A stretch of 31,643 nucleotides of DNA from a virus, in IMG/VR virus record IMGVR_UViG_3300047478_000160, positions 1 to 31,643 of that record. One strand, 5' to 3'. A model generated the notes under the pieces. It did no database searches. It had not been told where the DNA came from and was given only the letters and a program-made list of their open reading frames with translations. The position numbers were made by a program, and so were the translations under genes. Below are positions 1-28,287 of the stretch, in pieces (position 1 is the stretch's first letter; each line of letters opens with the position of its first letter).

Positions 1-2
1 GC

Positions 3-602: not shown

Positions 603-912
603 ACAACTCGAACTTCTAAAAGTCATTGGCGACGCTAACGAAGATGGCTCCCCAACCGACCTCGACCAGTTACTCGAGAGGCTGACTTACAAGCCTTCGA
701 AACAGTCGATTCAGTTCTCAATCCGCGCACTGGTGAATCATGGCTTGATTAAAAAAGGCGATTCCGAGAAGCGTCGGAGCCGCGTGAGAGCCATCATTGA
801 ACTCACCGAGATGGGTCGTTCCGTAACAGGTAAGAAGAAAACGTCTTACTTAGAGCCGGAATCCGAAGAAATCATGGATGAACTCACCGAGATTTTCGAA
901 GATTTAACCTGA
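583..912 (+). CDS. Small winged-helix DNA-binding protein
   Basis: This 109-residue protein begins LTTKQLELLKVIGD, then has the helix pair around DLDQLLERL and SKQSIQFSIRALVNHGLI, then a basic wing-like segment (KKGDSEKRRSRVRAIIELT). That order fits a MarR/LexA-like winged helix, with the recognition helix at about residues 38-54. The C-terminus is acidic. ATG ATG at 583/586 gives two possible starts one codon apart. It overlaps the preceding gene by 20 bases. It is the only obvious stand-alone transcription-factor-like protein in the window, so it is a candidate partner for the palindromic sites ahead of the late genes; that link is inference. It could equally act on early genes outside the window. 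Confidence 0.6.
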   Translation: MMHLTTKQLELLKVIGDANEDGSPTDLDQLLERLTYKPSKQSIQFSIRALVNHGLIKKGDSEKRRSRVRAIIELTEMGRSVTGKKKTSYLEPESEEIMDELTEIFEDLT

Positions 913-967
913 TTGGGAGTTTTGGGAAAGTCTCGGGGATTTTTCTCTCAACGTATATTAAATATAT

Positions 968-1234
968 ATGAAAACTACTAATAACTTAAATACTGTATAT
1001 GCGGAAGCGAGTTCTGGGGATTCGGGAGAAACCTATGCGGAAATCTCAGTCGACGAGTTGGCAATCGACCTCGGCAAAAAGCTAGGCAAGCGAGTTGAGA
1101 TTCAAGACGGCTTGGTAAAGGTATGGGAAAACGATTGCATTCCCGATGAGACAAATTGGAAATCATTGAGCGATGAAGAACTATTGCGATTAGTCGGATT
1201 AGTGAATGTGGAGGAGTTAGAAACAAATGAGTAG
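968..1234 (+). CDS. Small acidic hypothetical protein
   Basis: An 88-residue protein I do not recognise. It is acidic, especially toward the C-terminus (SDEELLRLVGLVNVEELETNE), and probably helical from about residue 28. There is no Shine-Dalgarno sequence before the ATG: the preceding bases are a run of A and T (about 954-967) that itself looks like a -10 element (TATATT at 954-959). Either the transcript is leaderless or nearly so, or translation depends on the unstructured AT-rich leader. It is the last gene before the terminator at 1284-1312 and therefore probably the end of the upstream transcription unit. Confidence 0.6.
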   Translation: MKTTNNLNTVYAEASSGDSGETYAEISVDELAIDLGKKLGKRVEIQDGLVKVWENDCIPDETNWKSLSDEELLRLVGLVNVEELETNE

Positions 1235-1283
1235 ACTTTTAGGCGTATTTCTGTTAGATTCCGACGCTACAGTCTTCTCCTAT

Positions 1284-1312
1284 GGGCGTCTTCTCCAGCG
1301 CCCTTTTTTTTT
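1284..1312 (+). terminator. Rho-independent terminator before the packaging genes
   Basis: GGGCGT (1284-1289) pairs with GCGCCC (1298-1303), with one T-G wobble. The loop is 8 bases and the stem is followed by nine T residues. It separates the upstream unit from the terminase genes. Confidence 0.8.
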
Positions 1313-1333
1313 GACAAGCAAGGTTGAACAAAA

Positions 1334-1963
1334 TTGACTGATAAGAAAAAACCAGTCGCAACGAAAGCGAAATCGAAGCGAATGACCCCACGTCAATGGG
1401 CTGAAGCTGAAGCGCTATGGGAAAGTGGCGAGATCACTCTGCCTCAGCTCATGAAGCGGTTTGGTAAAACCTCGAAAACATTCACCGATCACTTTGAAAA
1501 GCGTGGCATCAAGAAAGGTGCTGGCGCCAAAGAGCACGCCGAGAAAGTCAAAGAGGAAGTTACCAAGGCATCAGTCGAGGACGCAACCATCATCGCCGCT
1601 CGAATCAAAGAGACCAAGGAAGAGCACTACAAGATGGCGAGTGGTCTGGCCAAGCTCACCTGGACGGAGATTCTCAAAGCCAAACAAGACGGTGTACCAG
1701 TCGGTGTCGCACTGACCAACCTCAAAGCCTTAGATACCGCCATGACGGTGCTCAAGAAGGCTCGAGAAGAGCGTTACGCTGTTCTCGGTCTGGATCGTAC
1801 CGATTCAGTGGATGAAAACGAAGTTCCAGAGTTAGTCATTAGTGAGCTAACTGCGGAGCAGATTGAGTCACTTCAGGCTCGCAGTTTCAACGAGATCGAC
1901 GAGCTGGACGACATGCAAGTCGTTGACGCAACCGTTGAAGACGATGTGGTGGTGGAGGGCTAG
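1334..1963 (+). CDS. terS: Terminase small subunit (putative)
   Basis: This 209-residue protein sits directly before the large terminase subunit and shares one base with it, the classic small-subunit position. The N-terminus is lysine-rich, followed by a helix-turn-helix-like segment (MTPRQWAEAEALWESGEITLPQLMKRFGKTSKTF, about residues 17-50) that would bind the packaging site. A helical middle (about 65-150) suits oligomerisation, and an acidic tail follows. The start is TTG at 1334: a stop lies just upstream in frame (TGA at 1325), AAGG lies ten bases before it, and the first ATG (1382, residue 17) would cut into the basic N-terminus. The role is inferred from position and architecture, because small subunits are poorly conserved. 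Confidence 0.75.
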   Translation: MTDKKKPVATKAKSKRMTPRQWAEAEALWESGEITLPQLMKRFGKTSKTFTDHFEKRGIKKGAGAKEHAEKVKEEVTKASVEDATIIAARIKETKEEHYKMASGLAKLTWTEILKAKQDGVPVGVALTNLKALDTAMTVLKKAREERYAVLGLDRTDSVDENEVPELVISELTAEQIESLQARSFNEIDELDDMQVVDATVEDDVVVEG

Positions 1964-3207
1964 TGGCGCTTAAAGCCCACATCAGTCTCCACGCCAAGCA
2001 GATGGAGGTCTACCGATCATCAGCCCGTTATCGGGTGGTGGTTGCCGGCCGACGCTGGGGTAAAACCGCCTTATCTCGCGTTTTAATGATTAAGAACGCC
2101 CAGAAAGCCAAGCAGAAGATTTGGTATATCGCGCCGACATACCGCATGGCGAAACAGATTATGTGGGTCGACTTGATGGATGCAATCCCGAGAAAGTGGA
2201 TTCGCAAGATCAACGAGACGAGCATGGTGATTACGCTCATCAACGGCTCTCGCATCGAGCTGAAGGGCGCCGACAAGCCAGACTCACTTCGCGGTGTCGG
2301 TATCCACTTTCTTGTTCTGGACGAGTTTCAGGACATGACCGAAGAAACCTGGACGCTAGTTTTGCGCCCAACCCTGGCAGACACCCAAGGTAGCGCCTTA
2401 TTCATTGGCACACCAAAGGCATACAACTACCTATACGAGCTGTACAAGAAGGGTCAGATCGCCCGCAAGATGGGTCGCAACGAGTGGGAGTCATGGCAGT
2501 TCCCGACGATCACGTCACCATTCATTCCCGCCAGCGAGATCGAAGCCGCCAAGCAAGACATGGACGAAAAGTCGTTCCGTCAGGAGTTCGAAGCCAGCTT
2601 TGAAACCATGTCTGGACGGGTCTACTACCCATTTGACCGTACACAGCACGTTGGCAAGCTCGCTTTCAATCCCAAGTTACCTATCTGGGTCGGTATGGAC
2701 TTCAACATCGACCCAATGTCGACAGTGGTCTACCAGCCTCAAGAAAATGGCGAGCTGTGGGCAATCGACGAGATCGTGCTGTTCGGCTCCAATACCGAAG
2801 AAGTGTGTGAAGAGCTGGAGAAGCGGTTTTGGCGCAATCAGAAACAAATCGTCATGTACCCCGACCCCGCAGGCGGTCAAAGACAGCACGCTCGAGGCGA
2901 GACCGATATGGACATTCTTCGTGAGAAGGGGTTCGAACGCATCAAATACCGTCGAAAACACCCGCTGGTCGCTGATCGCGTGAACGCTGTCAACCGCATG
3001 CTTAAAGACGCAAATGGCAAGGTCAGGCTACGTATTGACGAGAAATGTAAGCATTTTATCAATGCTTTAGAACAAACTATTTACAAAAAAGGTACAAGAG
3101 AAGTAGATAAGACCGCAGGCGTCGAACACTCAGCAGACGCGGGCGGATATTGCATCGAATTGGAATTCCCAGTTCGTAAAATTGAAATTGGTGGCTTGTC
3201 AAGATAA
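1963..3207 (+). CDS. terL: Terminase large subunit (DNA-packaging ATPase and nuclease)
   Basis: This motor protein cuts concatemeric DNA and pumps it into the prohead through the portal. At 414 residues it is close to the usual size. The Walker A motif is GRRWGKT (residues 29-35), with a glutamine at 13 in the expected Q-motif area. Walker B is FLVLDE (116-121), with E121 as the likely catalytic glutamate. The C-terminal RNase H-like nuclease shows three acidic residues in the right order: D246 in WVGMDFN, D301 in YPDPAG and D392 in HSADAGGY. The GTG start overlaps the TAG of the small subunit, with GGAGG just upstream, indicating coupled translation. Nothing appears truncated. Confidence 0.95.
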   Translation: MALKAHISLHAKQMEVYRSSARYRVVVAGRRWGKTALSRVLMIKNAQKAKQKIWYIAPTYRMAKQIMWVDLMDAIPRKWIRKINETSMVITLINGSRIELKGADKPDSLRGVGIHFLVLDEFQDMTEETWTLVLRPTLADTQGSALFIGTPKAYNYLYELYKKGQIARKMGRNEWESWQFPTITSPFIPASEIEAAKQDMDEKSFRQEFEASFETMSGRVYYPFDRTQHVGKLAFNPKLPIWVGMDFNIDPMSTVVYQPQENGELWAIDEIVLFGSNTEEVCEELEKRFWRNQKQIVMYPDPAGGQRQHARGETDMDILREKGFERIKYRRKHPLVADRVNAVNRMLKDANGKVRLRIDEKCKHFINALEQTIYKKGTREVDKTAGVEHSADAGGYCIELEFPVRKIEIGGLSR

Positions 3208-3211
3208 TCGC

Positions 3212-3238
3212 TTGACTAAGTCACTACTGACGTATAAG
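3212..3238 (+). promoter_or_regulatory. Palindromic promoter-operator ahead of the portal gene (site a)
   Basis: TTGACT (3212-3217) is a -35-like hexamer. TATAAG (3233-3238, 15-base spacer) or TAAGAT (3235-3240, 17-base spacer) is a -10-like hexamer. The spacer holds TAAGTCA-CTAC-TGAC (3217-3231), one of nine related intergenic copies. The portal ribosome binding site AGGAG follows at 3241. Confidence 0.65.
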
Positions 3239-3249
3239 ATAGGAGCCCT

Positions 3250-4866
3250 ATGTCGAACTTCCAAATTAAACCAGGCGAATCATTCTCCGTTGACCCGGCA
3301 AGTCCGATGGCCGGCTCTTCTGTCATGCCTACGACAGACGATCAAAAGCGCCTTCGCGCACTGATTGACCGTCGCCATCCCGAATATGCTGAAAACGTTG
3401 AGCATTGGGACTTCTTGGAAGATACCTACGAAGGTGGGCGCGAGTGGTTCGATGAGAACACATTCCGCTACATCAAAGAGGGCGATCAGGAATATGCGGA
3501 TCGACTCGCACGAGCTTATCGTTTCAACCATTCACGCGAAGTCGTGGATCTGTTGAACAAATACTTATTCAAGCAAAATATTCAACGCAACACCGATGAC
3601 GCTCCAGATGCCGTCAAGCGGTTTTGGGACAAATCGACTCGCAACGGCCTTGGCATCAAGGATTTCGTTCGTCAGGTGTCCAAGAAAGCATCCATCTACG
3701 GTCGTATCGGCATCGTGGTCGACACAAGCTCTCGAGGTGGCCCAGTCATCTCAAAGGCTGATGAGCGCAATGCTGGCTTCAGAACCTACGCCTACATCGT
3801 TACGCCAGAGCAATTGCTCGACTACGCCTTCGACGACGAGGGTGAGCTGATCTGGGTATTGGTGGAAGAGTGCGTTCGTGATGACGCAGATCCATTGACC
3901 TCGAGCGGCGAAGAGCAAGAGCGCTTCCGTCTGTGGACAAAAGACGGTTGGCAGCTCTACCAGGAGTTCAAAGAAGGCCGTCGCAAGGTGGTTAAGCTGA
4001 TCGACTCAGGAATTCACGACCTCGGTGTAGTGCCAGTCATCCTTGCCGACAACATCATTACGGACGAAGATTACTGTGCTCCTTCACTCATTGGTGACAT
4101 AGCGTACCTCGACCGAGCAGTAGCAAACTACCTCTCCAACCTGGATGCAATCATTCAGGATCAGACGTTCTCACAGTTGGCTATGCCAGCTCAGAACATT
4201 CTGCCAGGCGAGGACAATTACACGAAGTTAACGGAGATGGGCACTAAGCGCATCTTCTTGTACGACGGCGAGTCAAACACTCAGCCGTTTTACTTATCAC
4301 CCGACGTTAAACAGGTAGAGATCATCTTGGCGGTCGTTAACAAGATCATCGGTGAAATCTACCACACTGTCGGATTAGCTGGCGAGCGTACTAAGCAGGA
4401 CAACGCTGTCGGCATCGATAACTCAAGCGGTGTAGCTAAGGCTTACGACTTTGAGCGAGTGAATGCTCTGTTGGCGGCTAAAGCAGACAGCCTTGAAGTT
4501 ATCGAAAACAAACTTGTTCGTCTTGTAGCCTTGTGGAACAGCGAAGAGTCAAAAGTAGAAACAAACCTTGTTTCCTACCCAGACGACTTCGATACACGCG
4601 GCTTGTACGACGAATTTGACATCGCGGCCCGCCTCATGCTGATTGATGCACCAGAGACAGTGCGTCAGGAACAGATGAAGTCGGTACTCGATAAACTCTT
4701 CCCTCAGATTGGTTCAGCTAAACGAGCCGAGATGGAGAAAGAGCTGAAAGACTGGCCAGGTACGCCTGAGCAGTCAGTAACGGGCGATCCATTAGCAAAG
4801 AAACCCGCAACTGGCAGCGCTGAGAGCAAGCAAGGTCAAAACAACAAAGACGCCACAACAGCTTAA
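3250..4866 (+). CDS. Portal protein
   Basis: The portal forms the dodecameric ring at one capsid vertex through which DNA passes and onto which the terminase and neck dock. This 538-residue protein follows terL and precedes a scaffold gene, as expected. Its middle contains long helical and beta segments typical of siphovirus portals, for example the helix-rich start RRHPEYAENVEHWDFLEDTYEGG and the stretch KLTEMGTKRIFLYDGESNTQPFYLSPDVKQVEIILAVVNKI split across residues 325-365. The tail is low-complexity and polar. AGGAG lies five bases before the ATG. I assign it from position, size and overall resemblance to the DUF4055-like portal group rather than one signature motif. Confidence 0.85.
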   Translation: MSNFQIKPGESFSVDPASPMAGSSVMPTTDDQKRLRALIDRRHPEYAENVEHWDFLEDTYEGGREWFDENTFRYIKEGDQEYADRLARAYRFNHSREVVDLLNKYLFKQNIQRNTDDAPDAVKRFWDKSTRNGLGIKDFVRQVSKKASIYGRIGIVVDTSSRGGPVISKADERNAGFRTYAYIVTPEQLLDYAFDDEGELIWVLVEECVRDDADPLTSSGEEQERFRLWTKDGWQLYQEFKEGRRKVVKLIDSGIHDLGVVPVILADNIITDEDYCAPSLIGDIAYLDRAVANYLSNLDAIIQDQTFSQLAMPAQNILPGEDNYTKLTEMGTKRIFLYDGESNTQPFYLSPDVKQVEIILAVVNKIIGEIYHTVGLAGERTKQDNAVGIDNSSGVAKAYDFERVNALLAAKADSLEVIENKLVRLVALWNSEESKVETNLVSYPDDFDTRGLYDEFDIAARLMLIDAPETVRQEQMKSVLDKLFPQIGSAKRAEMEKELKDWPGTPEQSVTGDPLAKKPATGSAESKQGQNNKDATTA

Positions 4867-4896
4867 GGCAGATTTGTTGTTGTAACAAAGTAGTAA

Positions 4897-4929
4897 CCGA
4901 TTGGCAAAGAGAATTGCCGACGGCTTTTT
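4897..4929 (+). terminator. Terminator after the portal gene
   Basis: An imperfect stem, CCG-A-TTGGCAA pairing with TTGCCGACGG (4914-4923), has one bulged A and one wobble pair. The loop is AGAGAA, and CTTTTT follows. It probably reduces transcription from portal into scaffold, or marks the end of a unit. Confidence 0.65.
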
Positions 4930-4967
4930 AAACTTAAGGCCAAGAGACTGGCTCGAAAGGAAACAAT

Positions 4968-5864
4968 ATGTTAATCAAACGACAATTCGCAATGCGCGGC
5001 TATCATGAACAACAAAACGGTGATGGTGGTGACGGCGGTGGTTCAGGCAGTGGAGATGACGAGGCTGCAAAAGCGGCAGCGGCAAAAGCAGTAGCAGACG
5101 CAGAGGCGGCAGCCAAGAAAGCGGCAGATGACGCTGAAGCGGCCAAGAAAGCGGCAGGCGACGGTGGTGGCGGTGCGCCCAAAAAGATGACGGACGAAGA
5201 AGCACGTCTTCTAAAAGAGAACATGAAGAAGAAGGAAGCATTGGACAAAGCCAGTGCAGAGTTGATTAAAGCGAAGGAAGCACTCAAGGCATTCGAGGGT
5301 GTAGACGCTGAAGAAGTCAGACGCCTTCTTTCAGAGAAGAAAACAGCCGAAGAGAAACAGCTCGAAGCCAAAGGTGAGTGGGATCGCTTAAAGACCCGCA
5401 TGGCCGAAGAACACGGCAAAGAAGTCAAGTCGCTTCAAGAGCAGTTAGAAGCTCTTCAGGGTCAACTGGGTCAAACCAAAGGCCAGATGAATGAGCTGAC
5501 GATCGGAAGCCAATTCTCTCAATCCAAGTTCATTTCAGAAGAGCTGACTTTGACGCCGGCCAAGGCTCGCGTCATCTATGGCGATCACTTCGACTACGAA
5601 GACGGCAAAGTTGTGGGCTACGACAAGCCTCGCGGCAGTGCCAACCGTACCGCAATGATTGACCAGTACGGAAATAACATTGCATTCGAGGATGCACTTC
5701 GCAAGATTGTTGACGCTGACCCTGAGAAGGATCATCTGCTCAAGAGCAAGGTAAAGCCTGGCGCTGGATCAGCATCTACAAAGCCAACTGGTACATCAAA
5801 ACCAGAAGGCCCTGCTGATGGATTGTCCAAGATTGCAGGTGGATTAAAGGGTTTGAAGTTCTAA
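4968..5864 (+). CDS. Capsid scaffolding protein
   Basis: Scaffolds guide assembly of the procapsid and then leave. This 298-residue protein lies between portal and major capsid protein and has the usual composition. A Gly/Asp-rich N-terminus (residues 18-33) leads into an Ala/Lys/Asp repeat (about 34-65), a second Gly run, and a long charged coiled coil (about 75-180; LLKENMKKKEALDKASAELI and onward). A more ordered segment ends around DHFDYEDGKVVGYDK, and the tail is basic and hydrophobic (GLSKIAGGLKGLKF), plausible for contacting the shell. AAGGAAA precedes the ATG. The low-complexity DNA at 5060-5180 also yields open frames on the other strand, which I take as artefacts. No protease is visible nearby. 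Confidence 0.82.
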   Translation: MLIKRQFAMRGYHEQQNGDGGDGGGSGSGDDEAAKAAAAKAVADAEAAAKKAADDAEAAKKAAGDGGGGAPKKMTDEEARLLKENMKKKEALDKASAELIKAKEALKAFEGVDAEEVRRLLSEKKTAEEKQLEAKGEWDRLKTRMAEEHGKEVKSLQEQLEALQGQLGQTKGQMNELTIGSQFSQSKFISEELTLTPAKARVIYGDHFDYEDGKVVGYDKPRGSANRTAMIDQYGNNIAFEDALRKIVDADPEKDHLLKSKVKPGAGSASTKPTGTSKPEGPADGLSKIAGGLKGLKF

Positions 5865-5883
5865 CACGGTTTTATTGTTAAAA

Positions 5884-5922
5884 TAAGTCACTGATGACTT
5901 GCGTTTTATGCCATTATATGAT
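5884..5922 (+). promoter_or_regulatory. Palindromic site ahead of the major capsid gene (site b)
   Basis: AAGTCA-CTGA-TGACTT (5885-5900) is a perfect inverted repeat with 6-base arms. Unlike sites a, c and g, it has no good -10 one base after the right arm. A plausible promoter uses the right arm as -35 (ATGACT, 5894-5899) with TATGAT at 5917-5922 (17-base spacer). A second half-site, TGACTTAGA, lies at 5943-5951. Confidence 0.55.
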
Positions 5923-6003
5923 AAAGTGCGGGCTTAAATCGGTGACTTAGAGCGACGTAAGAGCCGAACTGCGTTGTTTTCAATCATTCGAAAGGATTAA
6001 AAA

Positions 6004-6915
6004 ATGGCTCTTCTTAAGACCGAAGCCGAGAAGCTAAGTAACAACCAATTAGTTTCAGGCGTAATTGACCAAATCATCGAGCGTGATGACTTGTTTTCCG
6101 TTTTGCCTTTCGTAGGCGTTAACGGCAAGGCTTACGTTTACAACCGCGAAAACGCTTTAGGCGGTGCGGCTTTCCTCGACCCTAACGATTCAGTTAGCGA
6201 GAGCGCGGCTACATTCACTGAAGTTGTTGCCAAGCTCCGTATTTTAGCTGGTGACGTTGACGTGGATAAATTCCTCCAAACAACAATGGGCGACACAAAT
6301 GACCAGATGGCCATTCAAATCGCTAAGAAAGCCAAAGCTGTTGCTCGTGCTTTCCATCAAACATTGGCTACTGGCGACACAGGCACAAACGCTAAAGCGT
6401 TCGATGGCTTGCCAACTTTAGCCGCCGCCGCTCCTAGCACACAGAACTTGTCTGCTGGCGCAAACGGTAATGCATTGACATTGTCCATGCTCGACGAGTT
6501 ATGCGACGCTGTTCCTAACGGTGCTGACGTAATCGTTATGCGTCGTGGCACAATCCGCGCTTTCCGTGGCTTGCTCCGCGCTACATACGGTACAGACGCC
6601 GTAATGCAACAGTTAGAGAACTTCGGTCGTCCAATGCTCACACATAATGGCATTCCTGTCATCATGAACGAGTTCTTGGCCGCTGACGAAGATCAAGGCA
6701 CAGCACTCGATACAACTTCTGTTTACGCTTTACGCTTGAACGAGTTGGATGGCTTGCATGGCTTGTACGGTGGCGACAATGCCGGTATCGTTGTTGAAAA
6801 CATCGGTACAGTGCAGAACAAGGATGCAACACGTATCCGTTTGAAGTGGTATACAGGTTTGGCACTCAAATCTAGCCGCTCAATCGCACGCTTAAAGGGT
6901 GTTACAAACGTATAA
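6004..6915 (+). CDS. Major capsid protein (HK97 fold)
   Basis: This protein forms the icosahedral shell. At 303 residues it is compact but within the HK97-fold range. It follows the scaffold and a 139-base leader with a strong ribosome binding site (AAGGA). Sequence features fit the family: an N-terminal helix (LSNNQLVSGVIDQIIERDDLF), a strand reading GKAYVYNREN as in the E-loop region, a long spine-like helix around DQMAIQIAKKAKAVARAFHQTL, and a basic segment near the C-terminus (RIRLKWYTGLALKSSRSIARLKGV). Codon choice is strongly biased (Thr mostly ACA, Ala often GCT, Arg CGT), more so than in its neighbours, as expected for the most abundant virion protein. A promoter and terminator follow immediately. 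Confidence 0.9.
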   Translation: MALLKTEAEKLSNNQLVSGVIDQIIERDDLFSVLPFVGVNGKAYVYNRENALGGAAFLDPNDSVSESAATFTEVVAKLRILAGDVDVDKFLQTTMGDTNDQMAIQIAKKAKAVARAFHQTLATGDTGTNAKAFDGLPTLAAAAPSTQNLSAGANGNALTLSMLDELCDAVPNGADVIVMRRGTIRAFRGLLRATYGTDAVMQQLENFGRPMLTHNGIPVIMNEFLAADEDQGTALDTTSVYALRLNELDGLHGLYGGDNAGIVVENIGTVQNKDATRIRLKWYTGLALKSSRSIARLKGVTNV

Positions 6916-6916
6916 G

Positions 6917-6945
6917 TTGCATTTAAGTCAGGACTGACTTAGAAT
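6917..6945 (+). promoter_or_regulatory. Palindromic promoter-operator after the major capsid gene (site c)
   Basis: TTGCAT (6917-6922), a 17-base spacer and TAGAAT (6940-6945) make a good sigma70-type promoter. The spacer holds the perfect repeat AAGTCA-GGAC-TGACTT (6925-6940), which shares its last T with the -10. The -10 touches the first base of the following terminator stem. Confidence 0.72.
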
Positions 6946-6973
6946 GGGCGGGTTCACAAGACCCGCCCTTTTT
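6946..6973 (+). terminator. Strong terminator after the major capsid gene
   Basis: GGGCGGGT (6946-6953) pairs perfectly with ACCCGCCC (6961-6968) around the loop TCACAAG, followed by five T residues. Transcripts from the promoter at 6917-6945 would start at about 6952, inside the left arm, so they would not form this hairpin. Confidence 0.9.
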
Positions 6974-6992
6974 CTATTGAAGGAAAGCATTT

Positions 6993-7175
6993 ATGAAGAT
7001 CAAGATCGTACAAGAAGGCTATGAGAGCTTTACAGGCAATCTTGGGGATATTCAGTTTGCAGGCGGATTTTCCGTAACGAACGTAGATGCTGACACTGCC
7101 GCTGGTATTGCCGCGATCTATGAAGTGGAGTTGGTTGGTGCTGATGCGCCAGTCATTGAATCAACAGGAGAATAG
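6993..7175 (+). CDS. Small head-region protein, first of two tandem paralogues
   Basis: A 60-residue protein starting MKIKIVQEGYESFTGNLGDIQFAGGFS. The same N-terminal pattern opens the next gene (MKLRLTQSGFEKYTGQMGVVMFKDGLS), so the two are tandem paralogues. The recurring shape is a beta strand, Gx(F/Y), TG, a second strand, a turn, then an acidic or Ala-Ile segment (VDADTAAGIAAIYEV). I recall proteins of this type just after major capsid genes in several phages, without a firm function. A decoration or head-accessory role is possible but inferred only from position. AAGGAAAG precedes the ATG, and only two bases separate the stop from the next start. Confidence 0.7.
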   Translation: MKIKIVQEGYESFTGNLGDIQFAGGFSVTNVDADTAAGIAAIYEVELVGADAPVIESTGE

Positions 7176-7177
7176 AA

Positions 7178-7627
7178 ATGAAGCTACGACTTACACAATC
7201 AGGTTTTGAAAAGTACACAGGCCAAATGGGTGTGGTGATGTTCAAGGATGGGCTCAGTGAAACTGAAGTTCTACCCATTGACGGTATCCGCATCGCCGCC
7301 GCTATCGGTGCGACCTGGGAAGACGGCTCTGCCGCCAACGTAGGCCAAATGTACTTGAACAACATGGACGCGCCGGCCTTTGTAGGCACGGGCGGTGAAG
7401 GCATCAATGCGATGTCGATGCCAATCGAGGGGGCAGAACAACAAGGAGGCGACAAGCCCTCCGCAGGAAACACACGATACACACGCAAGCAACTCGAGGC
7501 GGTCGCTGATAAGTCAGGGATCGTGGGATTACGAGAGATTGCGGAGACATTGAAGGTAAAGGGCACTTCGATTGTCGGTTTGATTGAAACGATTTTAAAG
7601 GCCCAAGATAACCAGAAAGCGGAATAG
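7178..7627 (+). CDS. Head-region protein, second tandem paralogue with C-terminal helical domain
   Basis: This 149-residue protein has the N-terminal module of its upstream neighbour (residues 1-45), a linker with many Gly and Met residues (about 50-95), and a C-terminal helical domain (YTRKQLEAVADKSGIVGLREIAETL followed by KGTSIVGLIETILKAQ). That last part resembles the SAP/Rho-N-like or HeH folds phages often attach to structural proteins. The linker and extra domain distinguish it from the 60-residue version. AGGAG precedes the ATG. The function is unknown; position after the major capsid protein suggests a head accessory or attachment protein. Confidence 0.68.
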   Translation: MKLRLTQSGFEKYTGQMGVVMFKDGLSETEVLPIDGIRIAAAIGATWEDGSAANVGQMYLNNMDAPAFVGTGGEGINAMSMPIEGAEQQGGDKPSAGNTRYTRKQLEAVADKSGIVGLREIAETLKVKGTSIVGLIETILKAQDNQKAE

Positions 7628-7629
7628 TT

Positions 7630-8481
7630 ATGTCACTGCCTGTCTACCTCACCTCAACGGAAGTCAAGCTCACAGTCGACCTGACTGATGGAGCAGGCAA
7701 CGCCATCAACGCTAACACAGCTCAGTACAGAGTCCGAGATCAGGATGACGTGGAGCTTGTAGCGCTGACAGCCGTTCCCGATTTCATTGCGGGAGATCCA
7801 CAGGCGGTCATCACCATTCCAGCGATCAAGAACGTCGTGGGTAGCGCCAACACCCGCGAGATCCGCTCAGTCGAGCTGATTTGCGTGACCGATGACTTCA
7901 CTGTCTCGATCAATAAAAGCTACGCCATTGAGCTGAGTACGCCACTTGTGACTGGGGTGAACTCGTTCCAGTCATACGACCAGGCGCTCCTGACCGCTCT
8001 GGACATGCCAAAGACCGACGCATGGGACTCAGCATCGGAAGATGAGAAGGTGGCCGCATTGATCGATGCACGCCGTCACATCATCCAGTTGAACTTCAAC
8101 CTGCTGAACTCCAACGTGAACTTCGGCCAAGACTCCTTGCAGTACGTTCCAGAAGGCTCTTACGAGTCCAGCTACGTAGCTCGCAACAGCCTGTTCATCT
8201 TCAACGGCAACCTCGAGATCCTCAAGGCAGACCAGTTCGTGAAGTTGCCCGATCGCTTCAAGAAGTCGTTACGCCTGGCTCAAGTCGCTGAGGCCGATCA
8301 CATCTTGGGCGGTAACACAATGGACAGCAAACGCCAGGGTGGAATCATCGAAGAGCGTATCGGCGAGTCCGCACAGAAATACCGCGATACCAAGCCAATC
8401 GAGTTGCCAGTCTGCCGCAGGGCTTTGAGCTACCTGAGTTACTACGTTTCATTCGCCAAGCGCGTTGGAAGAGCAGGGTAA
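7630..8481 (+). CDS. Probable head-completion or connector protein with N-terminal beta domain
   Basis: A 283-residue protein in the head-to-tail connector cluster. The first 115 residues look like an immunoglobulin-like beta domain (VYLTSTEVKLTVDLTDGAGN, then ITIPAIKNVV, then INKSYAIEL). The rest is helical and begins SYDQALLTALDMPKTDAWDSASEDEKVAALIDARRHI split over residues 117-155, which is like the adaptor proteins that attach to the portal. The C-terminus (RRALSYLSYYVSFAKRVGRAG) is basic. The stop overlaps the next start (TAATG). The assignment rests on position and helical layout; I do not recognise a named family with confidence. Confidence 0.6.
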   Translation: MSLPVYLTSTEVKLTVDLTDGAGNAINANTAQYRVRDQDDVELVALTAVPDFIAGDPQAVITIPAIKNVVGSANTREIRSVELICVTDDFTVSINKSYAIELSTPLVTGVNSFQSYDQALLTALDMPKTDAWDSASEDEKVAALIDARRHIIQLNFNLLNSNVNFGQDSLQYVPEGSYESSYVARNSLFIFNGNLEILKADQFVKLPDRFKKSLRLAQVAEADHILGGNTMDSKRQGGIIEERIGESAQKYRDTKPIELPVCRRALSYLSYYVSFAKRVGRAG

Positions 8482-9146
8482 TGGTCAACGAGTTTGCTGA
8501 CCGCCTCAAGAGCGAGTACGAGCTGTACTTGTTCGCCTTGACGGGTCGTTACCTGTCAACGATGGCGCCTGGCATCGAAGTGACCCCATCGGTCGTCTCA
8601 GACTTCAAACGAGCCGCCGCACCCCTTCGATTGAGCTTTCTCGCAACTGCAAAGCAGACAATTGACGAATACACCAGCAAGAACCCATCAGAAACGGCCC
8701 AGACACGCGCCGCGACGCTCGAAGCTGACCTAGCTCGTATTTCGCTGGAAAACGTCTCTACGCTCGTTCTGGCGATGAAGGGCTTACAGCAAGTCATGTT
8801 CGCCAGCATCAAGGATGCGGGTGGTGCAATGGGCCTTGCACTGCAAAAGAAACTCAGCAACCCCGAGTTCAAGGTGACGAGCATGGGCGGTCGCAAGTAC
8901 GCCGCACTCAGATACCTCTACACACAAGCCCGTCATTTCGCTTATTTGACTCAGATCGAGGCAAGACTGGCTCAAATGGCCGCTGACTCTGACCTGGCTC
9001 AAGTGGCTTACTCAGACCCAGCTCATGCCGGTAACGGCACCCAATTCTCCATTTCAGGGACTACCAAGGGCTACCCAAGCTATGCGTCGCTGATCGATAC
9101 CGTCTTTCATTACAACTCTTCAGCGATGGTGGCTTCTCATGTTTAA
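8481..9146 (+). CDS. Head-neck region protein of unknown function
   Basis: A 221-residue, mostly helical protein (LKSEYELYLFALTGRYLSTM; AATLEADLARISLENVSTLV; GGRKYAALRYLYTQARHFAY). The C-terminal segment GYPSYASLIDTVFHYNSSAMVASHV faintly recalls the end of minor head proteins, but the Cys/His pattern of the Mu F/SPP1 gp7 family is absent. It overlaps its neighbours at both ends (TAATG with the previous gene, 8 bases with the next), so it is translated within the connector operon. It is most likely a minor head or connector component; the role is unresolved. Confidence 0.5.
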   Translation: MVNEFADRLKSEYELYLFALTGRYLSTMAPGIEVTPSVVSDFKRAAAPLRLSFLATAKQTIDEYTSKNPSETAQTRAATLEADLARISLENVSTLVLAMKGLQQVMFASIKDAGGAMGLALQKKLSNPEFKVTSMGGRKYAALRYLYTQARHFAYLTQIEARLAQMAADSDLAQVAYSDPAHAGNGTQFSISGTTKGYPSYASLIDTVFHYNSSAMVASHV

Positions 9147-9483
9147 ACCAAACCTCAACTGCACGATTCAGACCTCATCGGGCAAGACGGATGTTTATGG
9201 TCAGCCGACATTGGGCGCCCGATACAACGAGCGCTGTGCCGTCGTGACACTCAATATCACTTCAGTTAAATCATCGGTTAGAGCAGATACCGCCGCATCC
9301 AACGGGAATGCGCGAGAGCTTCAATCAGATGCCAATATCCTTCTTACAGCGTCTACAAGGGCTGAAATTGATGATGTGATCGAACTTCAGGGTTTGAAGC
9401 TACTGATTATGTCCAAACTTCCTCGATTTAGCGTTGAAGGCGTTTTAGACCATTACGAAATCACCGCAAACGTTCGGAAATAA
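9139..9483 (+). CDS. Probable head-closure (stopper) protein
   Basis: A 114-residue, beta-rich protein in the slot where siphoviruses encode the head-closure protein, which seals the portal and receives the tail. The sequence MFKPNLNCTIQTSSGKTDVYGQPTLG resembles the first strands of that fold ('...R.tg.D.yGqp'), and the last strands are IELQGLKLLIMSKLPRFSVEG followed by LDHYEITANVRK. It overlaps the preceding gene by 8 bases, and three bases separate it from the next. The assignment comes from position, size and general pattern. Confidence 0.6.
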   Translation: MFKPNLNCTIQTSSGKTDVYGQPTLGARYNERCAVVTLNITSVKSSVRADTAASNGNARELQSDANILLTASTRAEIDDVIELQGLKLLIMSKLPRFSVEGVLDHYEITANVRK

Positions 9484-9485
9484 TC

Positions 9486-9869
9486 ATGGACTTGATACCT
9501 GTAGCTAACCGACTGGAATCCGCCGCATTGGGCGAGATGGGTAAGACGATCTTCGTTCATTTCATGCCGATCGATGTCACCGAAGGCATCCTTTTACGCA
9601 ACCCGTTCAGCGGAACCCAGATCGACTATGAGCTACCTGGCTATTTCAAGACCCAGTTCACCGTGATCGTTCGAGTGCCAAGCTCCAAGATCGAGAATGG
9701 AATCGCTCTCATGAACGATGTAATGGCCGCATTGACCTTCTATGACGAGCAAGTCGAGGGTATGACGGTCAAGTACTTTCGCCCTTGCCATAAGCCGCTG
9801 ACCTATCAGGTATCAGACGGTGGCTACGTTGAAATGATGGTTCGCATCGACGCTGTATTCACGGAGTAA
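9486..9869 (+). CDS. Probable tail terminator protein
   Basis: A 127-residue protein that probably caps the finished tail tube so it can join the head. It has an N-terminal helix (LIPVANRLESAALGEMGKTIF), a central strand set (ELPGYFKTQFTVIVRVPSSK), a second helix (IENGIALMNDVMAALTF) and C-terminal strands ending YVEMMVRIDAVFTE. This alternating layout is that of the lambda gpU-like/minor capsid terminator families. It follows the probable stopper and precedes an HK97-gp10-like gene; those three often lie together, though the order varies. Confidence 0.65.
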   Translation: MDLIPVANRLESAALGEMGKTIFVHFMPIDVTEGILLRNPFSGTQIDYELPGYFKTQFTVIVRVPSSKIENGIALMNDVMAALTFYDEQVEGMTVKYFRPCHKPLTYQVSDGGYVEMMVRIDAVFTE

Positions 9870-9871
9870 TC

Positions 9872-10342
9872 GTGGGACTCTCAGTCAGCGGAGTCGAGGA
9901 GCTGAAGTTCATCCTTCAGAAAGCCTCATCGGAAGCCCCAAAGCACATCTTTGAGCAAATGAAGCGCGAGGGCAAGAAGATGCAACAGCTCGCCAGAATG
10001 ATGGCTCCCGTCGACATGGGCAACCTCGAGGACGCGATCACGCTGTCTACCGAAGGCGGTGGCCGTGACATGCGAGGCCGTTTCATGTCCAAAGTGGTGG
10101 CAGTCTTCATCGACATGAACCAGCCCGTACCAGAACGACCAGGCCATGTAGTTGGCGAATACGCCTACGAAATGCACGAACACCTCACCCCAATGGGGCC
10201 AAAAAAGCTGGGCAAAAAATCCGTAGCCAAGCAATCTGGACAGAGCGAACAGGTCGGGGGTGGTTTCATGGAACGTGCCGCAGAGCAAATAGAGGCAGGT
10301 TTAATGTCAAGACTCATCGATATAGCCAGAACATACCTATAA
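9872..10342 (+). CDS. HK97 gp10-like neck/tail-completion protein
   Basis: A 156-residue protein starting at GTG, two bases after the preceding stop. The N-terminus SGVEELKFILQKASSEAPKH followed by MKREGKKMQQLARMMAPVDMGNLEDAI is the hallmark of HK97-gp10-like proteins: an N-terminal helix, then 'APvdtG.L...i' before the beta sheet. The segment GEYAYEMHEHL matches the family's 'YA.yvEfGt' strand region. These proteins take part in joining head and tail, though the exact contact varies. Alternative starts are unlikely, because this GTG preserves the full N-terminal helix. Confidence 0.75.
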   Translation: MGLSVSGVEELKFILQKASSEAPKHIFEQMKREGKKMQQLARMMAPVDMGNLEDAITLSTEGGGRDMRGRFMSKVVAVFIDMNQPVPERPGHVVGEYAYEMHEHLTPMGPKKLGKKSVAKQSGQSEQVGGGFMERAAEQIEAGLMSRLIDIARTYL

Positions 10343-10386
10343 ACCTAGACTTTTGCTTGGTTTTGTGTTACAGTCCTGCCACCGGA

Positions 10387-10409
10387 ACAGTCATTAATGA
10401 CACAATAAT
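10387..10409 (+). promoter_or_regulatory. Palindromic operator ahead of the major tail protein (site d)
   Basis: GTCA-TTAA-TGAC (10390-10401) is a perfect 12-base palindrome, followed by CAATAA/AATAAT (10403-10409) as a possible -10. No convincing -35 lies at 17 bases. Downstream, CTTTGCAAAG (10415-10424) is a second short palindrome that includes part of the ribosome binding site AAAGGAG. Confidence 0.55.
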
Positions 10410-10433
10410 CACCTCTTTGCAAAGGAGTTTCAC

Positions 10434-11300
10434 ATGGCTTCAGATACACGTAACGTCAAACTAGGCGTTTGTAAGGTTTTATTCGACGGCGTAGACTTGG
10501 GATACACCCAGGGCGGCGTTGAAGTTACAGTTAAGACAGATACCCGTAAAGTAAACGTCGATCAGTTCGGCAAGACAACAATCAACGAATACATCCTCGG
10601 TCGTGACGTTATGGCTAAAGTACCTTTGGCTGAGACAACTTTGGACAACTTGGTTGCGATCATGCCTGGCGCATCGCTCGTAAGCACTGGTGGTACTGCC
10701 GCTACTGGTACTATCACAATTGCCACATTACCTACGACTGGTGACACAATCACAGTTAACGGTAAGACAATCACTTTCAAGACAACTGCCGCCGCCGCTG
10801 ATGAAGTAACGATTGGTGCTACACCAGCCGCTACAGCGACAAACTTGGCAGCTGTATTGAATGCATCTACAGACGCTAAGATCGCCGCCGCCCAGTACGT
10901 TGCCGCAGCCGCAGTAGTAACAGTGACTTATGGCAATAGCATCAGCGATGGTAGTGGTAAAGGCGTTGAAGGTAATTCATTCACATTAGCTACCGGCACT
11001 GCTGGCGTTAAAGTGACTGTATCTGGCGCAACCTTGTCTGGCGGTGCAGAGCCTACAGCCGAGTCCGTTTCTGTTATTACAGCGATTGGTACTGACCTCT
11101 TGGCAACAGCGAAAGAATTGCGCTTGCATCCTTCAGCTAAGGCTGATGATGACAAGTCTGAGGACTTCGTTATTCCTTTGGCCGCTACATCAGGTGCCTT
11201 GAATTTCGCTTACAAGCTGGAAAGCGAGCGTATCTACAACGTTGAGTTCAATGGCTACCCAAATGCCGCAACAGGACAGTTATTCACAGTGGGCGCATAA
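10434..11300 (+). CDS. Major tail (tube) protein with an inserted domain
   Basis: This protein polymerises into the tail tube. The outer parts (residues 1-87 and 207-288) read as one tube-protein fold: NVKLGVCKVLFDGVDLGYTQ, VTVKTDTRKVNVDQFGKTTI and EYILGRDVMAKVPLAETTLD at the front, then FVIPLAATSGALNFAYKLES and YNVEFNGYPN at the back. Between them, about residues 88-206 form a separate Ala/Thr/Gly-rich domain (TGDTITVNGKTITFKT, then AATATNLAAVLNAS) of a kind I have seen inserted in phage surface proteins; it probably projects from the tube. Like the major capsid gene it has biased codons and a strong ribosome binding site. It is followed by a terminator and the tail chaperone genes, the standard order. 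Confidence 0.88.
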   Translation: MASDTRNVKLGVCKVLFDGVDLGYTQGGVEVTVKTDTRKVNVDQFGKTTINEYILGRDVMAKVPLAETTLDNLVAIMPGASLVSTGGTAATGTITIATLPTTGDTITVNGKTITFKTTAAAADEVTIGATPAATATNLAAVLNASTDAKIAAAQYVAAAAVVTVTYGNSISDGSGKGVEGNSFTLATGTAGVKVTVSGATLSGGAEPTAESVSVITAIGTDLLATAKELRLHPSAKADDDKSEDFVIPLAATSGALNFAYKLESERIYNVEFNGYPNAATGQLFTVGA

Positions 11301-11303
11301 AAT

Positions 11304-11335
11304 AGTTCACTACTGAGTAAAGTTGTAGTAGAATA
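11304..11335 (+). promoter_or_regulatory. Degenerate palindromic promoter-operator after the major tail gene (site e)
   Basis: TAGTTCA-CTAC-TGAG (11304-11318) is a diverged copy of the repeat, with mismatches in both arms. TTCACT (11307-11312) and TAGAAT (11330-11335) are spaced by 17 bases. As at site c, TAGAAT directly touches the stem of a terminator. Confidence 0.5.
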
Positions 11336-11360
11336 GCCTCGCCTAGTGCGAGGCTTTTTC
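11336..11360 (+). terminator. Terminator after the major tail protein gene
   Basis: AGCCTCGC (11336-11343) pairs perfectly with GCGAGGCT (11349-11356) around the loop CTAGT, followed by a T-rich tail (TTTTTCTTTT from 11356). It limits readthrough from the highly expressed tube gene into the chaperone genes. Confidence 0.9.
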
Positions 11361-11383
11361 TTTTATAGATAACAGGAGCAGAA

Positions 11384-11725
11384 ATGACGAAATTATTGAA
11401 TCTCAATCAATTGAGTGCCAAGGAGACGCGACAAGTTCAGATCGGTGAGTCCAACTACACGATCAAGGAAATGTCGGTAGAAGACTTTATCGAAACAACC
11501 CGTGTAGCGGAATCGCTCGAAAACGAGATGAGCTATGCGAAGCAGTTACAGGCAACGGTACAGCTTATCAAGCGTGCCATTCCCAAGATTGAAGAGAGCG
11601 TTCTGTTGAACTTGTCTCTCGATCAGTTGAAAGCGCTGACAGGATTCATTCGCGGGGAAGATCCCGCAACATTGATGGGTGATAAACCCGAAGAGCAGAA
11701 GGTAGACGAGCAGGGAAACGCTTAG
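11384..11725 (+). CDS. Tail assembly chaperone, short form (lambda gpG analogue)
   Basis: This 113-residue protein lies between the major tail protein and the tape measure, the invariant place for the first tail chaperone. It is helical and acidic (SVEDFIETTRVAESLENEMS; LQATVQLIKRAIPKIEES). The family coats the tape measure and recruits tube subunits. Its last codons run over GGGAAAC (11713-11719), in the phase needed for -1 slippage, after which the ribosome would read the next open frame. Both a short form and a longer fusion should be made, as in lambda G and GT. AGGAG lies before the ATG. Confidence 0.85.
   Translation: MTKLLNLNQLSAKETRQVQIGESNYTIKEMSVEDFIETTRVAESLENEMSYAKQLQATVQLIKRAIPKIEESVLLNLSLDQLKALTGFIRGEDPATLMGDKPEEQKVDEQGNA
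11713..11719 (+). promoter_or_regulatory. Programmed -1 ribosomal frameshift site GGGAAAC
   Basis: In the chaperone frame the codons are CAG GGA AAC GCT TAG, so the heptamer reads G GGA AAC: the canonical X-XXY-YYZ form, one base different from lambda's GGGAAAG. The -1 frame is open from 11686 through 12048, so slippage here joins the two halves. The zero-frame stop follows one codon later. Confidence 0.85.
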
Positions 11726-12048
11726 AGGGCTTGCCGGACAGGGAGATCGACTTTGGTTTCCTGTTCAGCCAGCTCTGCCACTTCTACTCGATGTCGTTCC
11801 AGGAAGTCTTGAACATGCCCGTCAAGACATTCTGGCTGATGAGCGCCAATATACGCCGTATTAGAGCGGAGTCGGATTTACGTAGTTTAATGATTGCGGG
11901 AATCTCACAAAGTTCTGAAGGCATGAAAGATTATCAAGAGAAACTTATACTCGAAATGGGAGTAATTGTTAAAGCCCCAATCGGCGCCGATATTGAGCGA
12001 GACGAGGCTGGGTTCGCAGATTTGAAAGCTATGGCGCAAGCCATGTAA
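11719..12048 (+). CDS. Tail assembly chaperone, frameshift extension (lambda gpT analogue; expressed as G-T fusion)
   Basis: This frame is -1 relative to the first chaperone. Reading through the slippery site gives residues 1-112 of the short form followed by RLEGLPDREIDFGFLFSQLC and onward, a fusion of about 221 residues. The extension contains FYSMSFQEVLNMPVKTFWLM, the pattern of the second chaperone segment in many siphoviruses that binds the tape measure. An independent start would have to be TTG at 11731, with no ribosome binding site at proper distance, so frameshifting is the better explanation. It ends 11 bases before the tape measure gene. Confidence 0.85.
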   Translation, partial: RLEGLPDREIDFGFLFSQLCHFYSMSFQEVLNMPVKTFWLMSANIRRIRAESDLRSLMIAGISQSSEGMKDYQEKLILEMGVIVKAPIGADIERDEAGFADLKAMAQAM

Positions 12049-12059
12049 AGGACAAGGTT

Positions 12060-15000
12060 ATGGTAGGCGGCGAAATCAAAGTTGTAATGACGCTTGATGA
12101 TGGCGACTTTTCAGTAAAGACCATCAAAAACGGCAACATCATCAACGAGATGAAGCGTTCGCTCGACCAGACCGCGACCTCTACAAAGAACCTAGAAAAC
12201 CACTTCACAGGACTAGGCAAGACATTCCAAAGCACAGTGTTCACGCTGTCGCTTGTTCGCTTCGCCCTCACTGACATTCACGACATCTTCTTAGCATTGC
12301 CTTCAGCCATTCTGAAGAGCGCGGGTGAGATGGAGCGTATGACAAAGCTCATGGAAGGCATGAGTAAAGCGACCGACGATTACTCACGGAAAGCGGAAGC
12401 TGCATCTAGCGTCAAGTACATATTCAACCTGGCGCAGAACGCTCCATTCGAAGTTAAAGCCTTAACTGACGCCTTCGTGAAGATGAAGTCTGGCGGCATT
12501 GATCCATTAGCGATTGGTATGCAAGCCTTGACCGACTCTGTAGCTAAATTTGGTGGGACAAGCGACACCTTGCACCGAGCCTCTATTGCGATTCAGCAGA
12601 TGGCGGGCAAGGGCGTGATCTCGATGGAAGAGTTACGTCAGCAGTTAGGTGAGGCAGTTCCAAACGCTATCAACCTGATGGCAGAGGGAGCTGGCATGTC
12701 TACTGCCAAGTTCGCCAAACTGGTAAGCACAGGTGTGGTAGAGGCCACAGGCGCCTTGAATAACATGTTTGCCGCAATGATCGTAGAAAACTATGGTGCC
12801 GCATCATCAATGATGGACACCTGGACTGGCATGCTGGCTCTATTGAAGACAAAGTTCGAGCTGTTCAAGATCAACATCGCGGGAGATGAAAAGACAGACT
12901 TCTTTGCAGAAGCAAAAGCCAGCCTAAAAGAATTGATCGAAGCGTTTGACGGCATGACATCGAAGTCTCTAGCATACGACATGGGGCAGGCGCTCGCAAG
13001 CATTGTTAGAGCCTTGAGAGAGGTAATCAACTTCACGAGAGAGTGGTGGGACAGTATCAAGCTGGCGGGTGAAGCATTCCTTGTTTACTTTGCGGTAGAC
13101 AAGATCATGGTATTCACGGAGGCGTTCCGTAAATTCACAATGGATCGCATCGCTCTGTACAAGAAGGAAATTGCCGATCAAGAGTCTGCGAAAACCGACA
13201 AGCTACGACTCATCATGGCGGAGATCGCGGCCGAGGAAGGGGCTTTTGTAAGAAACCAAGCCATCATCGCTAAAGAAGCTGATGCACAAGCCGCCGCTGC
13301 CGCAAAAGAGGCAGCCGCTTCCGCTACCAAGCTAGAAAAGCAACGGGCCGCCTTGGCCAAAGAGCTGGCAGATCGTGTAGCGCACTACCAAGAGTTAAAC
13401 ACTATTCAGCAACAATTCCTGGCACAGCAAATGGCTGCCGAGTTGCAAGCTGAAGCACAGTTACGCCGTAAGAAAGCTGGCTCCGCAGCCGCAGCCGCAG
13501 CCGCAAATGCAGAAGCAATGCGGATTGCAAATAACTCTGCCATATTAGCCACAACAGTAAACTCTACGAAGGCTGAAATTGAGGCACTAAAAGCAAAAGA
13601 AACTGCATTATTGGCCGCAATCGCCGCGACTCGCAATCACACGGTTGCAAACACGGCTGACGCCGCCGTAAGCGCTCTAACGGCAGAACACTTTAAGAAG
13701 ACGACAATCTTACTAGACCAAAAAGCAGCCGCTTCCACCGCCGCCGCATTGTCAGTCGGCATGCTCACTCGCGCGATGACGGCTGCCAATCTGGTATTTC
13801 AAGCGTTTGGTGGCTGGGTTGGAGTAGCTATTGCCGCATTGACATATCTCGGACAGAAACTCTACGACTTCTTAAAGAGCTGGGAAAAAGCCGAAGAGGT
13901 ATCGAAGAAGATCAGAAAGGGAATTGCAGCCTCAACGGATGAAGAAACGCTAAAGCCGAAGGTAGCGGCGTTGGATACAAGAATAGCTAGAGATGAGAAG
14001 TTCTTTGCCAAGACCGCACGACCACAGGATGTACCAGAGGGTACTGACCCAGCTACGAAACGAATATTTCAACAGGCTCAAAAAGAATACGACGACCGCA
14101 AGAAGCAGTATGAGGCGGATATTGCTCTACGCAAAAAATACGTTGACGACATTTCAGAGTCAAAGCGCCTTCTGCAAAAAGAAGACGACGACTCAGACGC
14201 TAGAGCATATAGAGCCAGAACAGTAGATGCCATCAAAGCAAGCGTGCAAGAGCAAAATGCTCAGCTAGATGCGCTACGCAAGCAAAAGCAAGACATAGAA
14301 GATGAGTTGAAAGGGCGTGGAGCTACCGGCGATCAGGTAGAGAAAGCGACAAAAGACCTTAAAGACAAAATATCAGCAAAGACTAAAGAATCTATCCTGA
14401 TTCAATCAAATATGCTCAAGGCAGAGCAGGACAGATTAAATGCATTGCTGAAGACAGCGGCAGACGGTGAGAAAGGCAAAATCTCAGCGATGCTGGAGGA
14501 GATAACCAATGAACGCACTGGTTTAGCTAGTCAGTGGAATAACTACAAAGAGGCCGCTAAAGACTTTGGCACCTTAAAGGTAGCGAAGAAAGATAAGAAC
14601 GAGACCGCAGAAGACCCGCTGATTCGCGCAATTCAGGATATTGCGGGACAAGTTCAGTCAGCCAAGCTGAAGCTCCAGTCCACCATTCAGGAAGTTCGCG
14701 GCTTTGACCAGATGAAGAACGAGGCGTTCGCAAGTGTCTTGGGTGACATGGCCAGCGGAAGGTTCGACTCGAGCGCTGGTAAAGACGGCGATGGCACAGT
14801 ACGCCGCAACTACATGGGTGGCTTGCAAGAGCGTAAGAAGTACGTAGAGGAGTTTGCGGCTTACTTGAAGTCAGGCGGGACAGATATTGACACTTTCGCA
14901 AGGTCGCTTAAAGGCTTGTCCGACACTGAGCGTGAGCGTTTGGTTATGTTGGCTTCTCAGAAAGCCTTCATTGCTGACCTGACTCAAAACCAGAAGGCGC

Positions 15001-23756: not shown

Positions 23757-23784
23757 TTGCAGTAAGTCACAACTGACGTATAAT
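23757..23784 (+). promoter_or_regulatory. Palindromic promoter-operator ahead of the first tail fibre gene (site g)
   Basis: TTGCAG (23757-23762), a 16-base spacer and a perfect TATAAT (23779-23784) form the best promoter in the window. TAAGTCA-CAAC-TGAC (23763-23777) fills the spacer, leaving one base before the -10. Confidence 0.8.
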
Positions 23785-28214: not shown

Positions 28215-28243
28215 TTGCAATAAGTCAGTAATGACTTGACAAT
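28215..28243 (+). promoter_or_regulatory. Palindromic promoter-operator (site h)
   Basis: TTGCAA (28215-28220), a 17-base spacer and GACAAT (28238-28243, 4 of 6 matches). The spacer is TAAGTCA-GTAA-TGACTT (28221-28237), a perfect repeat with 6-base arms. Confidence 0.65.
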
Positions 28244-28287
28244 ATAGGAGTATGTACAATAAAATTGCCGATAAATTTGAGGAACCC

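Follow-up and report, generated by a model that had tools for sequence, protein, structure and literature searches.

A compact, putatively repressible promoter-terminator element conserved behind the major capsid gene in relatives of SSU5-like phages

In phage T7, the stretch from phi10 to T-phi makes the capsid gene a transcription unit of its own, whose promoter is local and whose strong terminator directly follows the gene. The late promoters of the phage-plasmid P1, which depend on the activator Lpa, combine an inverted repeat near -22 with a -10 element and have no -35, the repeat standing at a fixed distance. In phage LUZ100 the capsid gene is reported to be insulated by its own local promoter and a terminator behind it (PMC10134795). 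Control by a single protein acting at many sites is known from large temperate phages: in SPbeta the dispersed element SPBRE, a motif of 15 bp, lies in promoter regions and is served by one repressor, MrpR, which has a tyrosine-recombinase fold (PMC10516654), and Cluster A mycobacteriophages are described as carrying dispersed operators or stoperators for a single repressor (PMC6550527). For Cyrano, a relative of SSU5 from E. coli LF82, expression of a 'putative repressor' during lysogeny and induction of the phage by genotoxic stress are reported (PMC9928086), which fits a temperate phage-plasmid. PMC3890552 describes RNA 3' ends, not starts, in terminator stems. No case of a phage promoter overlapping or lying within a terminator was found among titles and abstract openings, and the open literature searched in the same way yielded neither operators nor capsid-terminator promoters for the SSU5-like group.

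The window, that is, the whole stretch of DNA analysed here, is a virus record of 31.6 kb and belongs to a tailed phage; full relatives of this phage measure about 100-120 kb. Its major capsid protein gene (6004-6915, plus strand; PHROG 212 major head protein, E 1.3e-94) encodes a protein 46-65% identical to those of SSU5-like Salmonella, Escherichia and Klebsiella phages and of some Stenotrophomonas, Pseudomonas and Rhizobium phages. Upstream of the gene lies a probable capsid promoter, ATGACT-17-TATGAT (5894-5922, plus strand), overlapping an operator-like palindrome, TAAGTCACTGATGACTTG (5884-5901, no strand assigned; matrix score 24.1), and a palindrome scoring at least 14 is found upstream of the capsid gene in 19 of the 30 relative clusters assessed, out of the 31 described below. 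As in a T7-type unit, a probable promoter just before the capsid gene (5894-5922) is matched by a predicted terminator just after it (6946-6973); in T7 the promoter is that of the phage RNA polymerase, whereas the terminator here overlaps with a host-type promoter that carries an operator-like palindrome.

The capsid gene ends with a TAA stop codon at 6913-6915 and is followed by a putative sigma70-type promoter (6917-6945, plus strand) composed of a -35-like TTGCAT (6917-6922), a 17-nt spacer (6923-6939) and the -10 hexamer TAGAAT (6940-6945). The hexamer distance lies within the 16-18 nt of sigma70 promoters, and 8 of the 12 bases agree with the consensus. The predicted intrinsic terminator of the capsid gene (6946-6973, plus strand) begins at the very next base; its stem-loop (6946-6968), GGGCGGGTT CACAA GACCCGCCC, comprises nine pairs, seven of them G-C, and is directly followed by TTTTTC. 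A sequence-only reading had pointed out that TAGAAT adjoins this stem and that transcription from it would start near 6952, inside the left arm. Its coordinates are right, the abutment is real and conserved in relatives, and position 6952, 7 nt past the -10, does fall in the left arm (6946-6954). Overlooked in that reading was a palindrome with the core AAGTCA-N4-TGACTT (6925-6940), which fills the spacer; the complete operator-like site, TAAGTCAGGACTGACTTA (6924-6941, no strand assigned; matrix score 24.1), overlaps the first bases of the -10 and belongs to a type dispersed in the genomes of relatives. A restarted transcript would carry two genes, both PHROG 916 of unknown function (6993-7175 and 7178-7627, plus strand). 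These adjacent genes look like a duplication of which one copy is short.

We consider it likely that 6917-6973, standing between the major capsid gene and the head genes that come next, is a compact conserved operator-promoter-terminator element that would end, and thereby insulate, the capsid mRNA and restart transcription, with the palindrome being an operator of a dispersed set, most likely that of a phage repressor.

Judged on the window only, the abutment was not trustworthy, because the promoter lies under the limit of the promoter scan, which gave no match at 6917-6945, and because the totals of both kinds of site are at chance level: 11 promoter-like sites were found against 12.5 expected, and bases 1-16000 contain 17 terminator-like sites against 17.4 in shuffles, the capsid terminator ranking first of the 17. 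It is placed above chance by the positions of TAGAAT, by offset enrichment at terminators and by conservation in relatives. The window has four copies of TAGAAT where 13 would be expected, and two of these stand immediately before the stems of its two strongest terminators (beginning at 6946 and 11335). Among 87 strong terminators from the window and five relatives, eight have a promoter (matrix score of at least 8) whose -10 ends 0-4 nt before the stem; the other offsets within 60 nt, 116 in number, give nine cases together. Of the eight abutting cases, seven lie behind the capsid or the major tail gene, as assigned by sequence comparison with the known capsid and tail sites. A third strong terminator of the window (1284-1303), upstream of a gene for a DNA-binding protein (probably the small terminase), has no promoter-like hexamer abutting its stem, in contrast to the two composites.

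Relatives with the capsid gene comprised 80 viral contigs, two genome contigs and eight named phages (n = 90), and together with the window gave 70 distinct sequences 3' of the capsid stop codon; these relatives are not independent of each other in the counts. In 54 of the 70 there is a -10 hexamer, matching at least four of six bases, whose end lies no more than 3 nt ahead of the stem and no more than 2 nt within it; TTG stands exactly 17 nt upstream of this hexamer in 37 of the 54 and at 16-18 nt in 42. Grouping at less than 85% identity gave 31 clusters, 24 of which have the abutting -10; in these 24, TTG occurs at 17 nt in 14 clusters and at 18 nt in two (16-18 nt in 16), and in at most one at each remaining spacer between 8 and 30 nt. 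Over the 47 sequences with an exact palindrome the -35 TTG is retained as T in 40, T in 35 and G in 39, while the bases directly upstream vary. Conservation of -10 positions 2 and 6 proves nothing, since the search demanded A and T there. This TTG/-10 pattern resembles that of a promoter under selection: a single promoter of this kind is weak evidence, but its conservation convincingly supports a predicted sigma70-type promoter overlapping the capsid terminator.

By the same test 16 of the 70 distinct sequences have no abutting -10, and most of L068-L072, L077 and L079 keep the terminator and its preceding A's and lack the hexamer. The bases AGAA of the -10 are able to pair with the U-run of the terminator, so that part of the -10 conservation could serve termination. 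Such features would be expected if there were no promoter here. TAGAAT would then be no more than A-rich sequence at the foot of a (partly bidirectional) terminator, and at the 3' end of the capsid mRNA the palindrome would form another hairpin or a site for RNA processing. The preference for TTG at exactly 17 nt in clusters with an abutting -10 makes this quite improbable, as does the recurrence of the palindrome across the genomes beside promoters that have no terminator. Because it recurs genome-wide, mostly between genes, and stands at such promoters, the palindrome is best regarded as a DNA site, and a tandem RNA hairpin was rejected for its presence at promoters of this kind.

If the predicted promoter and terminator are both real, as the preferred reading has it, their overlap may still be functionless, a product of mere compaction, with the downstream genes expressed mainly by read-through. 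Intergenic gaps are short throughout, the hairpin is largely retained on the new transcript in many relatives, and at the tail site of farther relatives the promoter-like bases and the hairpin stand apart, all of which would suit this explanation. It is nevertheless doubtful, given that -10 and stem are directly adjacent or 1 nt apart in 18 of the 24 clusters (the test allowed -2 to +3) while the palindrome inside the promoter changes, and that abutment is enriched over other offsets at the 87 terminators, where no such gap restriction applied. The stop/restart arrangement proposed for the element is kept in most relatives, which suggests that it matters for correct amounts of the shell and tail proteins.

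The gene for an Ig-domain protein, probably the major tail protein (10434-11300, plus strand; PHROG 2175 and 1280, with a weak match to PHROG 885 major tail protein), appears to follow the same stop-and-restart plan. It is preceded by a probable promoter, TGTGTTACAGT, with a weak palindrome at 10387-10404 (score 14.3; the whole at 10369-10404, plus strand), a layout matched in G009 at 29162. Behind it stands the second composite, consisting of a putative promoter TTCACT-17-TAGAAT (11306-11334, plus strand) and, set against its TAGAAT, the predicted intrinsic terminator of the tail gene (11335-11360, plus strand; stem 11335-11355). In close relatives an imperfect palindrome overlaps the -35 at this site and TAGAAT or a similar hexamer still adjoins the stem; in farther relatives the hairpin lies apart from the promoter-like bases and most of the U-run is lost. 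Since the plan is the same at both genes, the capsid and tail proteins, which are expected to be the most abundant in the virion, would be made from single-gene units insulated from neighbours in lower demand. The proposal that expression of the capsid mRNA is separated from that of the following genes fits both this recurrence and the capsid gene's own upstream promoter and palindrome (5884-5922).

The same sequence-only reading held that a restarted transcript would escape the terminator. For the window, the whole capsid hairpin folds at -17.0 kcal/mol, and what remains of it has -2.1 kcal/mol when transcription starts 6 nt past the -10 and 0.0 kcal/mol at 7-9 nt (calculated on L002, whose 75 nt past the stop codon are those of the window). 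The folding survey covered 47 of the 70 distinct sequences, namely those with the AGTCA palindrome and a -10 of at least four matches, the other 23 being left out. With a start 7 nt past the -10, the remaining hairpin is weaker than -4 kcal/mol in 13 of the 47 and weaker than -6 kcal/mol in 16, while 31 keep a hairpin of -6 kcal/mol or stronger. Escape is thus supported for the window, with its start at 6952, and for its near clade, and not for those 31 relatives; because they keep the hairpin, loss of the left arm is not the sole reason for the overlap. In these relatives the overlap needs another or an additional reason, such as a hairpin too near the start to terminate, protection of the 5' end or an early stop, and, with its U's, the kept hairpin might halt transcription from the new start at about +20 to +25. 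A more speculative reading, to which we give little credence, is that one hairpin would serve two transcripts: it would end the capsid mRNA and cap its 3' side, and then, in about two thirds of the relatives, form a stem at the extreme 5' end of the next mRNA, too near the promoter to terminate yet protective. A repressor bound within the same 60 bp would act as the switch. Termination, restart, mRNA stability and silencing in lysogeny would then be joined in a single conserved module, and its operator sequence would evolve in the way an immunity specificity does.

The palindrome of the preferred reading is widely dispersed. AGTCA-N4-TGAC has 10-36 forward-strand copies in 16 of the 19 viral-contig records of at least 85 kb, of which G006 and G013 also gave high counts for the reversed-pattern control on the reverse strand (21 against 29 for the pattern, and 16 against 33); the remaining three records have three copies (G019) or none (G020 and G021). 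Sites are intergenic in 110 of 144 cases (76%) in six genomes. The window has, on the plus strand, a promoter TTGACT-17-TAAGAT with an operator palindrome at 3217-3234 before the portal gene (3212-3240), a palindrome with TATAAT before the gene at 23811 (23763-23784), both lacking a terminator, and, close to where the gene at 28252 begins, a palindrome with TTGACA-18-TAAAAT (28221-28265). The gene at 23811-24938 contains a tandem GNLTGNVT peptide repeat (24600-24800).

In a search of 13 genomes over all 5-base half-sites with gaps of 0-8, AGTCA with a gap of 4 was the top gapped palindrome in G002, G003, G004, G007, G009 and G010. Rhizobium phage B1VFA ranked AAGTA/AGTAA first (one palindrome in two registers), TAAGC/AGTAA was jointly first in G020 and G021, and in SSU5 and pJN2-26 TAAGT/GGTAA was among the top palindromes, ranked below AAACA-N3-TGTTT. 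The latter has 14 copies in each of these two genomes (L136-L140, L147-L152), more than the GGTAA type, and is possibly the site of another regulator. The same search gave no comparable top palindrome in nickie and RHph_Y2_11. GTTGCC-GGCAAC of phages nickie and hairong was rejected as a dispersed operator, having one site per genome. Across lineages the geometry of the palindrome is constant, with one or two bases per half-site differing, and in B1VFA and pJN2-26 the capsid site carries the palindrome type of its own lineage.

Strong promoters near palindromes, scored with the same matrix, number 129 against 37 with shuffled flanks, a count that includes G001, the same phage as the window or a near copy, so that several sites are counted twice. 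Relative to these 129 promoters the palindrome centre lies at -42 to -36 in 38, at -24 to -18 in 44 and at -3 to +15 in 41; for the first class the control (about 11) is elevated because the palindrome itself resembles a -35. One motif therefore stands at many phage promoter regions, as in a dispersed operator set. Its placing over the -35, the spacer and the start favours a repressor, and an operator-like palindrome in its spacer makes the promoter at 6917-6945 probably repressible.

An activator of the Lpa kind was initially favoured as the main reading, as the capsid palindrome is centred near -20. The palindrome would then be a late activator site, and the promoter would be off until a lytic activator is made instead of being repressed in lysogeny. 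Centres near -20 in 44 of the 129 promoters and at -42 to -36 in 38 are near classical activator positions, and most named genes behind palindromes in the window are late genes. This was dropped as the main reading and is now considered unlikely: the -35 TTG is conserved at 17 nt, which is unexpected where an activator replaces the -35, and 41 of the 129 centres lie past the -10, at -3 to +15, a placing at which activators are seldom effective. Unlike the P1 late promoters, those considered here keep a -35, and the repeat varies in position.

The repressor reading has parallels elsewhere. The sites share with SPBRE the repetition of one short motif at promoter regions of a large temperate phage genome, and differ in being palindromes of 16-18 bp with a putative helix-turn-helix-like protein in place of MrpR (PMC10516654). 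With Cluster A stoperators they share many dispersed sites whose sequence drifts between relatives, the repressors drifting too in that case; stoperators lack symmetry, have an orientation and mostly stand clear of promoters, whereas the sites here are palindromic and promoter-enriched, and a stoperator interpretation was rejected on these grounds (PMC6550527).

A candidate regulator is a helix-turn-helix-like protein of about 150 aa, conserved in 22 of 29 records (e.g. L101 66679-67137 and L151 90088-90468), which resembles HTH_3/HTH_19 only below the Pfam cut-offs. It is absent from SSU5, although SSU5 has GGTAA-type palindromes, was not found in G005 and G016 (fragments of about 73 kb with AGTCA palindromes), and was likewise not found in G019, W03, W05 and W08. 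In pJN2-26 its gene lies directly behind a perfect palindrome, the only such case among 11 copies inspected upstream; in G007 AGTCA-N4-TGAC sites precede the gene, whose start codon is uncertain, and the other copies inspected have imperfect upstream palindromes or none. The protein is best treated as a lead, a putative repressor acting at the palindromes. The FljA-like 'transcriptional repressor' of pJN2-26 (31722-32252) was rejected as a general candidate; over 11 genomes and the window it has a homologue in SSU5 only, the rest being at chance level.

From the anatomy and folding of the element we infer promoter activity and termination as follows. The capsid mRNA, made from its own upstream promoter, would be ended by the hairpin and U-run, and host sigma70 acting at TTGCAT-17-TAGAAT would start a new transcript in the left arm at about 6952. 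At least in the window this transcript should be unable to form the hairpin and would express the following genes. The spacer palindrome would be one operator of a genome-wide set, most likely serving a phage repressor. Repression and its purpose we infer from how many palindromes there are, from their placing between genes and at varied positions, and from their drift by lineage: the putative repressor would silence 6917-6945 and other lytic promoters while the phage is a plasmid or lysogen.

T7-like phages insulate the capsid gene with their own polymerase at hand; the present phage-plasmid lineage, seemingly using host-type promoters, would insulate its capsid gene by overlapping both signals and adding a palindromic operator. 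The recurrence of the arrangement behind the capsid and tail genes, and its retention despite drift of the operator, offer a testable case for terminator/promoter overlap as a selected design, and the dispersed palindromes open a direct way to study how lysogeny is controlled in SSU5-like phage-plasmids.
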